Below are positions 3,008 through 6,779 of a stretch of DNA of 20,105 nt, piece by piece. The notes under the pieces are model-generated. The model was not told the origin of the DNA, searched no databases, and worked only from the letters and a program-made list of their open reading frames with translations. Position 1 is the first letter of the stretch, and each line of letters begins with the position of its first letter. The translations under genes were made by a program, and so were the position numbers. The stretch covers positions 1 through 20,105 of the IMG/VR virus record IMGVR_UViG_3300005515_000068. One strand, 5' to 3'. The DNA comes from a virus.

Positions 3008-4539
3008 TGTCCTCCGCGCTCACCGCCAAGACACGCCTGGTCGCAGCACTCGGCACTGATCGTGCCATCGCCACAGCGCGGGCCCAGCTCGCTCCGGTGT
3101 TGGCGCGCGCCCATGAGGTCACTCGTCCCTCGCGCAATCGCAAGCTCGCTCGTGACTGGGGCAGTGGCAATGCCATCGCGGGAATGGACGCACGTCAGCT
3201 TCGTGACCAGGCACGCCACCTCGAACGCGATCTGGACCTGGCAGACAATGCCCTCAACGTGTTGGTGCAAAACACGGTCGGGTCTGGGATCGATGTGCTT
3301 TCCGCTCCACGCCTGCCGGGCCAGCCAATCGACCGCGCTCTGGCGCTGCAACTGGACGACCTGTGGGACGCATGGTGGGACGCGCCGGAAGTGACCGGTT
3401 CCCACGACTACGGTATGTGCCAGCAGTTGCTGGCTCGCAGCTGGTTCCGGGACGGCGACGCGTTCTACCAGGACCTGATTGGGCCCGTGTCGTATCTGCA
3501 GCACGGATCGGTCGTGCCCTACAGCTTTGAGATGCTCGAAGCGGACTTGGTGCCGCATGATTTCAACGATCCGGCGCGCAACATCAGCCAAGGCGTTGAA
3601 TGCAATGCGTGGGGAAGGCCGGTGGCCTACCACGTATTTAAGCGCCACCCGGGTGACCCGATGGGATCGCGCACCGAGACCAAACGTGTTTCGGCCGATT
3701 TCATGCACCGAATCGCGTTGGTGAAGCGGTTGCACCAGCTGCGTGGATTGAGCGTCTTCGCCAGTTCCATGTCGCGCTTCGAGGATGTCAAGGATTACGA
3801 GGAGTCCGAGCGCATCGCTGCGAAGGTTGCAGCGTCGATGACGTTCCAAATCAAGAAGGGCTCGGGCGAGCAATATGGCAATGATCTGGGCGGCAATGTG
3901 CTGATCCAGGACGACATGCCAATCCGTGAGCTGCGCTTGGCGCCGGGGGCGATCTTCGATGATCTGCTGCCGGGCGAGTCCATCGAAAGTCTGGGCACTG
4001 ACCGGCCCAATCCAAACGCGGCCACGTGGCGCAAGGAACAGCTGCGAGCGGCTGCAGGTGGTATTGGGGTGAGCTATTCCAGCCTGTCGCTGGACTACAA
4101 CGGCACCTACTCGGCGCAGCGCCAGGAGCTGGTAGAGAAGTGGGGCAGCTACCTGATGCTCGCCGAGCGCTTTATCGCGCTCTGTGTCCGGCCCCAGCGC
4201 ATGCGCTTTGTCGAAGCCTGCGTCCTTTCCGGTCGCGTGAAGATGCCGCGAGGCTGGACCCTGCGCGACTTGGCCGCATCGACCTACGTGCGTCCCGTCA
4301 TGCCCTGGATCGATCCGCTGAAAGAGGCTTACGCGCGTGGCGAGGCTGAAGATCGCGGCTGGGTATCGCCGCAGCAAAACACCCTGCAGTACGGCAACAA
4401 CCCGGCCGAGGTCCTGCGCCAACGCCAGGACTGGCAGCAACAGAACAAAGACCTGATGCCGCCGGCATCCAACACCAGCGCTGAAGCCCGTGCCCGCGTG
4501 GTGGGCTCGCTGCAGCACGATCTCTCCAGGAGCGAATGA
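3007..4539 (+). CDS. Phage portal protein, lambda gpB type
   Basis: The portal forms the dodecameric channel at one capsid vertex through which DNA enters and leaves, and it nucleates prohead assembly. The 510 residues match the lambda gpB family length. A hallmark is the segment LADNALNVLVQNTVGSGI at about 78-95, which follows the basic region RNRKLARDWGSGNA. Downstream are the expected FEMLEADLVPHDF segment (around 174-186), HVFKRHPGD (around 210-218) and the C-terminal WVSPQQNTLQYGNNPAEVLRQR-like stretch around 452-473, typical of the family's end. The start overlaps the gpW stop and its own stop overlaps the next start (ATGA at 4536). In lambda the gene order W-B-C is the same. No truncation or frameshift is visible. 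Confidence 0.95.
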   Translation: MSSALTAKTRLVAALGTDRAIATARAQLAPVLARAHEVTRPSRNRKLARDWGSGNAIAGMDARQLRDQARHLERDLDLADNALNVLVQNTVGSGIDVLSAPRLPGQPIDRALALQLDDLWDAWWDAPEVTGSHDYGMCQQLLARSWFRDGDAFYQDLIGPVSYLQHGSVVPYSFEMLEADLVPHDFNDPARNISQGVECNAWGRPVAYHVFKRHPGDPMGSRTETKRVSADFMHRIALVKRLHQLRGLSVFASSMSRFEDVKDYEESERIAAKVAASMTFQIKKGSGEQYGNDLGGNVLIQDDMPIRELRLAPGAIFDDLLPGESIESLGTDRPNPNAATWRKEQLRAAAGGIGVSYSSLSLDYNGTYSAQRQELVEKWGSYLMLAERFIALCVRPQRMRFVEACVLSGRVKMPRGWTLRDLAASTYVRPVMPWIDPLKEAYARGEAEDRGWVSPQQNTLQYGNNPAEVLRQRQDWQQQNKDLMPPASNTSAEARARVVGSLQHDLSRSE

Positions 4540-6779
4540 CCATGCGTGCATGCCTGTTGGCCGCCGCCATCCAAATCACCATCCGGGCCGACGCTGGCCA
4601 TGAGCCCGAGCTGGGTCCCGCGCTGTATCAGATTCGCGCCGACGCCGACACGGCCGAAGTCATGATCTACGGCGCAATCGGCGGATTTCTCTTCGAAGAA
4701 TCGGTCTCAGCCAGCGACCTGGTCGATCAGATCGGACAGATCACTGCCTCCACGATTCATGTGCGCCTGAACAGCGTGGGCGGCATCGTTGCTGATGGAC
4801 TGGCCATCCACAACGCACTCAAGTCCCACACCGCGCGCAAGATCATCACCGTGGAAGGACAGGCGGCGTCCATCGCTTCGCTGATCCTGCAGGCCGGCGA
4901 TGAGCGGCAGGTCTACGCCAGCTCGCTGGTGATGGTGCACGCCCCGCGCACGGTGGCTGCCGGTAGCGCAACTGCCTTCCGCCAGAACGCGGATGCCCTG
5001 GACGCTCATGCGGCGGCGATGTTGGAAGCGTACGCGGCCCGCTCGGGTCGCCGCGAGGACATGGAGCGCCTGCTTACCGACGACGTGGACCACTGGTACT
5101 CCGGCCCGCAGGCCGTAGAGGCCGGCTTGGCCGACACCGTCGTGGGCGCCGAGCCGGGCGCCAGCGCCCGCTGGCAGGGGGCATCGGCCGTGGCCATCAG
5201 CGGCTACCTGCAGTCCATCGACGGCGCGGCCTCTCCGGTCACCGCCCAGCTTCGCCGCCACATCACGGCGTGCCTGTCCCCACAAGTTTTCGCCTCTCTC
5301 CCTGAGGTCAGCCAGTCGGCCGTCATCGGCCATATCGAGGATCCCACCATGAACCAGCAGTACCGTCACATCCTCGCCAATGCCGGCCGCACCAGTGCGA
5401 CTCCGGCAGGCGCAACCGCCACCCCCGCCTCGGTCGCCGCGCCCGTAGCCGCACCGCCGGTGACGGCCGCGGCCGATCCGGTCCAGGCCGCGATGGTGGC
5501 ACTGCGCGAGCGCAATTCGCAGATCCAAGCGATGGCCACTCCGCATATGGGCAACGCCCAGGTAAGCGAGTACGTGAACAGCGTGATCGCGCAGGCTGAC
5601 TCCAATGTCACCGCCGATGCGGTGGGCCGCCACATCCTGGCGCTGCTGGCCACCAACGCGGGTCCGCTCAACGGTGGGGCCAACTTCACCGCTGGCACCG
5701 ACCAGCGTGACCTGACCCGCTCGGCGATGGCCAATGCAATCCAGGCCCGTGCCGGTCTGGTGCAGCCGACCGACGGCAACCCCTATCGCGGAATGACCAT
5801 GGGTGAGATCGCTCGCGCGTGCGTCCAGGCTACTGGCACCAGCGTAGCCGGCATGGATCGGATGCAGATTGTGGGTCTTGCCTTCACCCACAGCACCTCC
5901 GATTTCCCTTCGCTGCTGGGCGACGCCTCGCGCCGGGCCGTGCTGCAGGGGTATCAGGAAGCGGAGGAGAACTTCGACCAGTTCACCCGCGCCGTCAACG
6001 TGCCGGACTTCAAGCCCACCAACCTGGTCGGACTGGGCGCCTTCTCGGATCTGGACATCGTGCCGGAAGGTGGCGAGTACAAGCACGGCACCTTCAGCGA
6101 ACAATCGCAGGCGATGAAGATCGTCACCTACGGCAAGCTCTTCACCATCACCCGTCAGGCCATCATCAACGATGACCTGGGCATCTTCAGCGACGTGCCG
6201 CGCAAGATGGGCCAGGCTGCTCGACGCACGCTTGCAAAGGCGGTTTTCGAGCTGATCAACGGCAATCCGATTCTGGCCGATGGCAAGCCGCTGTTCCACG
6301 CCGATCACGGCAACCTCCTGCCGGCGGCGTTGATCAGTACCTCCAGCGTTGGCGGCATGCAGGCCCGGATGCGCCGTCAGAAGGACAAGGACGGCAACCT
6401 GATCCAGGTGCCGATGAAGGGGCTGCTGACCCCCGTTGCGCTGGGCGAACGCGCCCGCGCCGTACGCACTGCGGAGTTCGCTGTGGGGAGCGGCGGCGAG
6501 CGTGACCCGAACACCGTGCGTAACACCTTCGAAGTGTGGGACCACGGCCGGCTTGATGAAAAGAGCGCAGAAGCCTGGTACGGCGTGGCCAACCCCGCAT
6601 TCGTGGACGGAATCGTGGTGGGTTACCTGGACGGTAACCAGTCCCCGTATCTCGAACAGGAACAGGGCTTCACCGTCGACGGTGTTGCCTGGAAGGTTCG
6701 CCTCGATGCTGCGCCGGCTATTGCCGACTACCGAGGCATCTACAAGAACCCGGGCAAGCCTGAACCCGCCGAAGCCTGA
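4536..6779 (+). CDS. ClpP-like prohead protease fused to Mu gpT-like major capsid protein
   Basis: A single 747-residue frame joins two head functions. Residues 1-230 form a ClpP/S14-like serine protease: Ser112 in GQAASIAS, His135 in VMVHAP and Asp185 before HWYSG give a plausible triad with ClpP-like spacing. Residues 284-315 are an Ala/Pro/Thr linker. About 316-385 is helical and may act as an internal scaffold or delta domain. From about 389 to the end is a capsid domain resembling Mu gpT, with PLFHADHGNL (585-594) and the terminal GFTVDGVAWKVRLD...DYRGIYKNPG pattern. The protease would cut scaffold and capsid precursors during maturation. The start overlaps the portal stop (ATGA). AGGAG at 4528-4532 is only three bases from ATG 4536 but nine from ATG 4542, so 4542 may be the true start. 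Protease-capsid fusions of this type are known in other phages, to my recollection. Confidence 0.9.
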   Translation: MTMRACLLAAAIQITIRADAGHEPELGPALYQIRADADTAEVMIYGAIGGFLFEESVSASDLVDQIGQITASTIHVRLNSVGGIVADGLAIHNALKSHTARKIITVEGQAASIASLILQAGDERQVYASSLVMVHAPRTVAAGSATAFRQNADALDAHAAAMLEAYAARSGRREDMERLLTDDVDHWYSGPQAVEAGLADTVVGAEPGASARWQGASAVAISGYLQSIDGAASPVTAQLRRHITACLSPQVFASLPEVSQSAVIGHIEDPTMNQQYRHILANAGRTSATPAGATATPASVAAPVAAPPVTAAADPVQAAMVALRERNSQIQAMATPHMGNAQVSEYVNSVIAQADSNVTADAVGRHILALLATNAGPLNGGANFTAGTDQRDLTRSAMANAIQARAGLVQPTDGNPYRGMTMGEIARACVQATGTSVAGMDRMQIVGLAFTHSTSDFPSLLGDASRRAVLQGYQEAEENFDQFTRAVNVPDFKPTNLVGLGAFSDLDIVPEGGEYKHGTFSEQSQAMKIVTYGKLFTITRQAIINDDLGIFSDVPRKMGQAARRTLAKAVFELINGNPILADGKPLFHADHGNLLPAALISTSSVGGMQARMRRQKDKDGNLIQVPMKGLLTPVALGERARAVRTAEFAVGSGGERDPNTVRNTFEVWDHGRLDEKSAEAWYGVANPAFVDGIVVGYLDGNQSPYLEQEQGFTVDGVAWKVRLDAAPAIADYRGIYKNPGKPEPAEA
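5349..6779 (+). CDS. Possible internally started capsid protein (scaffold plus capsid, no protease)
   Basis: Inside the fusion gene, in the same frame, ATG 5349 (Met272, start of MNQQYRHIL) is preceded by GAGG about nine bases upstream (cgaggatcccacc). Initiation here would give a 476-residue protein lacking the protease but containing the linker, helical domain and entire capsid domain. A capsid needs hundreds of coat subunits but few proteases, and in lambda the scaffold Nu3 is likewise made from an internal start in the protease gene C. The position, exactly after the protease domain, fits this. No experimental support is available from sequence alone, and the alternative is that all capsid subunits come from autocleavage of the fusion. 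Confidence 0.5.
   Translation: MNQQYRHILANAGRTSATPAGATATPASVAAPVAAPPVTAAADPVQAAMVALRERNSQIQAMATPHMGNAQVSEYVNSVIAQADSNVTADAVGRHILALLATNAGPLNGGANFTAGTDQRDLTRSAMANAIQARAGLVQPTDGNPYRGMTMGEIARACVQATGTSVAGMDRMQIVGLAFTHSTSDFPSLLGDASRRAVLQGYQEAEENFDQFTRAVNVPDFKPTNLVGLGAFSDLDIVPEGGEYKHGTFSEQSQAMKIVTYGKLFTITRQAIINDDLGIFSDVPRKMGQAARRTLAKAVFELINGNPILADGKPLFHADHGNLLPAALISTSSVGGMQARMRRQKDKDGNLIQVPMKGLLTPVALGERARAVRTAEFAVGSGGERDPNTVRNTFEVWDHGRLDEKSAEAWYGVANPAFVDGIVVGYLDGNQSPYLEQEQGFTVDGVAWKVRLDAAPAIADYRGIYKNPGKPEPAEA

Follow-up and report, generated by a model that had tools for sequence, protein, structure and literature searches.

A conserved ATG and Shine-Dalgarno sequence at the protease-scaffold boundary of phage protease-scaffold-coat fusion genes, and the nested product that they may encode

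A phage gene in which head maturation protease, scaffold and major capsid protein share one reading frame raises the question of whether every coat subunit is made with a protease attached. Such a gene lies in the window analysed here (i.e. the whole stretch of 20,105 nt). An initial annotation had proposed that an internal ATG of this gene, at position 5349, serves as a translation start that gives capsid protein without protease. We have examined this proposal by comparing the gene with its relatives.

The fusion gene and its internal ATG

The window, a virus record of 20 kb, is most closely related to phages and prophages of Stenotrophomonas, Xanthomonas, Pseudoxanthomonas and Luteimonas. 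The gene order is lambdoid; a terminase large subunit of the GpA type is followed by small genes, a portal of the lambda family, the fusion and a cement/decoration protein. The fusion matches the NCBIfam model NF045540 (ClpP-like prohead protease/major capsid protein fusion) over its full length (profile 1-652 of 652) with 577.9 bits (3.3e-173), above the curated cut-off of 475 bits. Taken separately, the N-terminus is a ClpP-related protease by NF045542 (143 bits; cut-off 120) and the C-terminus a major capsid protein by PF25209 (175 bits; cut-off 27). The protein is also assigned to phrog_133. The features are collected in Table 1.

Table 1. Coordinates of the fusion gene, its domains and its start sites in the window.
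Feature	Position	Strand	Evidence or property
Fusion gene: ClpP-like head maturation protease, scaffold/delta region and HK97-fold major capsid protein	4536..6779	+	747 codons
Second ATG, likely true full-length start	4542..4544	+	SD energy -6.6 vs -3.4 at ATG 4536 (kcal/mol); both the SD and the openness of the mRNA conserved
ClpP-like protease domain, aa 40-207	4653..5156	+	NF045542 aa 40-202; PF00574 aa 71-204; Foldseek matches to ClpP
Helical stretch from protease to internal start, aa 208-271	5157..5348	+	AlphaFold2 helices aa 211-228, 233-246, 249-254, 257-267
GAGG, putative Shine-Dalgarno (SD) sequence of internal start	5337..5340	+	Codons GAG in 15/15 and GAT in 14/15; SD strong throughout clade A (100%)
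Internal in-frame candidate start codon ATG (Met272)	5349..5351	+	In frame, conserved; open mRNA z +4.2
Predicted nested product, scaffold/delta region and coat without protease	5349..6776	+	476 aa, 50.5 kDa; NF045540 profile 184-652
Putative scaffold/delta region, aa 273 to about 385	5352..5690	+	AlphaFold2: Ala/Pro-rich linker after a short helix, then three helices and a low-confidence linker
Major capsid protein domain, aa 425-738	5808..6749	+	PF25209 4.6e-51; PF10124 3.9e-07

The first ATG of the longest reading frame, at 4536, overlaps the stop codon of the portal gene and lies 3 nt past AGGAG (region 4527-4544). ATG 4542 has the better SD spacing and is where the matches of many relatives start (residue 3), so the start of the longest reading frame is probably two codons too early.

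Profile matches to ClpP stop at about aa 203-209. In an AlphaFold2 model of the fusion (mean pLDDT 71.5; aa = model residue + 2, i.e. model residues 209-265 are aa 211-267) the protease fold is followed by the helices of aa 211-267 and, past a break, by a short helix from about Met272. A low-confidence Ala/Pro-rich linker leads from there to three helices, and a second linker of low confidence leads to the coat. Met272 therefore sits between folded parts of the model, ~64 residues past the end of the protease homology. The initial annotation had placed ATG 5349 immediately after the protease domain; it does lie after that domain, but not immediately, since the helices intervene. The helical stretch is found in the clade of the window (clade A) and is missing from the other clades aligned. 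By analogy with the HK97 delta domain and lambda Nu3, we infer that the region from aa 273 to about 385 may have a scaffold/delta role. A search for solved structures similar in sequence to the scaffold-coat part gave nothing useful, the sole relevant match being a weak one to the phage GpT coat 8rkc (E 0.4).

Inspection of the sequence around ATG 5349 bears out its description as an in-frame codon with GAGG about nine bases upstream, the spacer between them being ATCCCACC (8 nt), and translation from this ATG begins MNQQYRHIL, as had been predicted. The gene of the window thus has an in-frame ATG with an SD sequence downstream of its protease domain, which is the arrangement of the lambda C/Nu3 type. 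We took the strength of an SD sequence as its duplex energy with the 3′ end of 16S rRNA. At ATG 5349 this is -5.9 kcal/mol, a value equalled or beaten at 12 of the 118 internal in-frame ATGs in the genes of the window, and reached by about 8-14% of all ATGs. Control sites scored -7.4 (the nested start of Mu Z, with AGGAG) and -6.4 (the annotated lambda Nu3 start), similar to the site in the window. The ATG at codon 309 of lambda C scored -9.7; we presume that this may be the Nu3 start found experimentally. In a single sequence the SD before ATG 5349 is ordinary, and not beyond chance. Its conservation is beyond chance.

Conservation of the site in related fusions

In clade A 45 related loci were found, of which 44 span the site, with the caution that one of the six search patterns overlapped it. 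Made non-redundant at 92% protein identity, the set comprises 15 full-length members including the window. Conservation of the GAGG and ATG in close homologues had been put forward as a check, and GAG-GA(T/C) with an ATG is kept in all 15, two of them having the ATG one codon earlier. In these Xanthomonas-type sequences (L022 and L023/L042) the site reads GAGGAT CC(C/T) ATG and the former ATG codon is ATC or ACC, so that the distance from GAGG to ATG becomes 5 nt instead of 8 nt. The Asp codon of the SD is GAT more often than at any other of the 25 conserved Asp columns (the next has 11/15), in genes that prefer GAC. A synonymous-shuffle test of SD strength gave a marginal result (z -1.7, p 0.043), and the third base is likewise invariant in 11 of 38 comparable columns; taken alone, the SD evidence from clade A is therefore moderate.

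The marginal test, together with the high conservation of the clade A protein around the site, is what might be expected if there were no internal start at all, the gene encoding a polyprotein from which the protease domain is cut from every full-length subunit, with the Met and the GAGG reflecting conservation of the protein only. We regard this as quite unlikely, in part on the basis of a second group. Clade B comprises 32 non-redundant fusions that are about 32-40% identical to the protein of the window, from Salmonella Gifsy-2 and Fels-1, Pseudomonas F10, E. coli mEp043 and cdtI, Pasteurella, Providencia, Klebsiella and Citrobacter, and its search patterns excluded the internal-start site. 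The boundary Met is invariant in the pattern (E/Q/K)(E/D)(F/Y)xxMP, while neighbouring residues change 8-15 times. Codon -5 (i.e. the SD codon) is GAG, AAG or CAG in 32/32, where a G-ending codon would be expected in 49% from the genes' own codon usage. On the protein tree its first base changes about five times, exchanging Glu, Lys and Gln, and its third base not at all, whereas in 29 of 31 comparable columns the third base has undergone 4-11 changes. Conservation of the protein alone should not hold the third base of a codon fixed while its amino acid is exchanged, nor the Met invariant amid variable residues. The SD of clade B is stronger than in 300/300 synonymous shuffles (z -4.2), being strong in 100% of sequences compared with 46%. 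In Gifsy-2 itself GAGGAG lies 9 nt from an ATG at codon 221.

Among the comparable columns of clade B only one further third base is without change, that of codon -8 relative to the internal ATG (e.g. L048, L050), a hint that the conserved initiation region may extend further upstream. Column 279 of this clade has a strong SD-like site within the protease domain; its codons match the synonymous null and the mRNA is not open, and we rejected it as a start.

These comparisons indicate that selection acts on the nucleotides at the internal start, beyond that on the protein. The indication is strongest in clade B, and the SD taken alone gives a weaker one in clade A.

The same layout is found with a second type of protease. 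Stenotrophomonas phage S1 matches NF045541, a model with a different N-terminal protease, and reached no ClpP model; its protease/scaffold boundary reads CAGGAG CACACC ATG. The S1-like fusions (clade C, 39 non-redundant sequences) have a ClpP-like N-terminus in some members and another protease in others. A strong SD, in several cases the full AAGGAGG, precedes the boundary-region ATG in 72% (about 28/39), and this ATG is typically 445-505 codons from the C-terminus. Pooled, the clade departs from synonymous shuffles (z -4.0), with weak tests for individual sequences. Recurrence of the site with a different protease again argues against the polyprotein explanation.

About 11 of the 39 have no strong SD before the boundary ATG (L244, L247, L248, L249, L251, L252, L253, L279, L281 and L292 among them). 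Several have A-rich sequence upstream of the ATG, as would suit hosts that initiate without SD pairing. Three distant coat relatives (L300, L302 and L303) are larger fusions, with open frames of about 790-850 codons. In these too an ATG with an SD (GGAGGAG in L300 and L302) lies some 500 codons short of the C-terminus. We also searched 369 host-class genomes for a natural split at the boundary. This gave two stand-alone genes for coat-like proteins of 348 and 361 aa (L301, 1312-2358, and L304, 1210-2295 (minus strand)), distant relatives of the coat domain of the fusion; they have neither scaffold nor protease part and do not test the boundary. Stops in the tblastn alignments of the relatives lay at the C-terminal end only, so that none of these fusions was broken.

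Folding of the mRNA at the site

Genuine translation starts tend toward weaker folding of the mRNA. In clade A the predicted folding energy at the internal ATG is -8.7 kcal/mol compared with a gene average of -19.8 kcal/mol (z +4.2 against synonymous codons), and in clade B it is -6.4 kcal/mol compared with -14.5 kcal/mol (z +5.5). Among the conserved Met columns tested in clade A, a universal strong SD and unusually open mRNA coincide at two sites alone, the gene start (z +4.7) and Met272; in clade B the internal ATG alone has both. That folding is relaxed beyond the synonymous expectation at these starts only is a further point against a polyprotein with no second start. In clade C folding at the boundary ATG was not relaxed relative to the synonymous null (z 0.0).

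Intragenic SD-like elements have been proposed to slow ribosomes, and the GAGG and ATG might on that basis cause a pause that allows the protease to fold ahead of the scaffold, without initiation. Pausing would need neither an ATG nor a fixed distance between SD and ATG, yet the ATG is invariant in clade B and stays within SD range where it has shifted, and open mRNA is a mark of initiation. We therefore consider pausing most improbable.

Proposed function and relation to known systems

We think it very likely, from the comparative evidence, that internal initiation gives a scaffold-coat protein as the bulk product, the full-length fusion being a minor, protease-bearing form. The initial suggestion of a capsid protein made without protease is thus well supported by conservation in homologues, selection at the nucleotide level and the open mRNA. 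It had been framed as scaffold plus coat made separately, with the coat itself as the internal product; the absence of the protease stands, and the prediction is refined to a single 476-aa protein comprising scaffold/delta region and coat.

We infer a scheme of initiation, product ratio, co-assembly and processing in which the fusion gene would have two translation starts in one frame. Initiation at ATG 4542 (or 4536) would give the complete protease-scaffold-coat protein as a minor component, which would enter the procapsid by means of its own coat/scaffold part and so bring in the maturation protease. Initiation at ATG 5349 would provide most of the subunits as scaffold-coat protein. Following assembly, the protease would cleave off both itself and the scaffold region.

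The internal start could instead be used for a minor or regulatory product (a scaffold helper), with the full-length fusion as the main subunit. The ratio of the products is not readable from sequence, and the SD at 4542 (-6.6) is slightly stronger than that at 5349 (-5.9). Against this, the mRNA of clade A is more open at the internal start (-8.7 kcal/mol) than at the gene start (-14.1 kcal/mol), and hundreds of ClpP-like domains inside the procapsid would probably carry a steric cost. On this evidence we judge such a minor role to be quite unlikely, and favour the scaffold-coat protein as the principal subunit.

On balance we lean slightly towards a more general rule, that protease-scaffold-coat fusions bear a second start at the boundary, so that two ribosome sites set the ratio of protease to coat. 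The boundary start is kept when the type of protease upstream is replaced, and it may therefore act as a joint between modules. If our interpretation is correct, it explains how phages with such a three-part gene avoid placing a protease on every subunit of the head, which would be built from a few tagged and many plain coat subunits. In the annotation of hundreds of records, from a large family of phages, the main structural protein would then be missing, and searches of mass spectra would be supplied with the wrong N-terminus.

The fusion itself is already known. The tripartite capsid gene of Gifsy-2 (Effantin et al. 2010, Virology 402:355, as cited in PMC3121763) joins a protease, a middle part resembling a scaffold and the major capsid protein in a single gene, as do members of NF045540, and is homologous to that of the window over almost its full length; known as a fusion, it also has the SD and ATG at the boundary. 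Pseudomonas phage MD8, among the best phage matches to the protein of the window, is described as encoding protease, scaffold and coat in the single gene of gp5 (PMC8508860); section 2.5 of that article discusses no internal start. We found no account of an internal start in these fusions in the literature searched, though one may already be suggested in the Gifsy-2 study. In HK97 gp4/gp5 the scaffold (delta domain) is fused to the coat protein (as described in PMC8508860), but unlike the gene of the window the protease is encoded by a separate upstream gene, so that no nested start is needed.

Nested starts are known too. By the annotation of their records, lambda C/Nu3 has, inside the gene of the maturation protease, an in-frame start for a protease-free product, and Mu I/Z has an internal start within its protease gene. 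In both the nested product is scaffold only and the coat (E in lambda, T in Mu) is a separate gene, whereas in the window the coat (aa 425-738) is in the same frame, which sets it apart from lambda C/Nu3 proper (i.e. scaffold without coat). What differs here is that the nested product would include the coat itself, from a site conserved across clades and types of protease. The principle of lambda C/Nu3 and Mu I/Z would then reach the coat protein itself.
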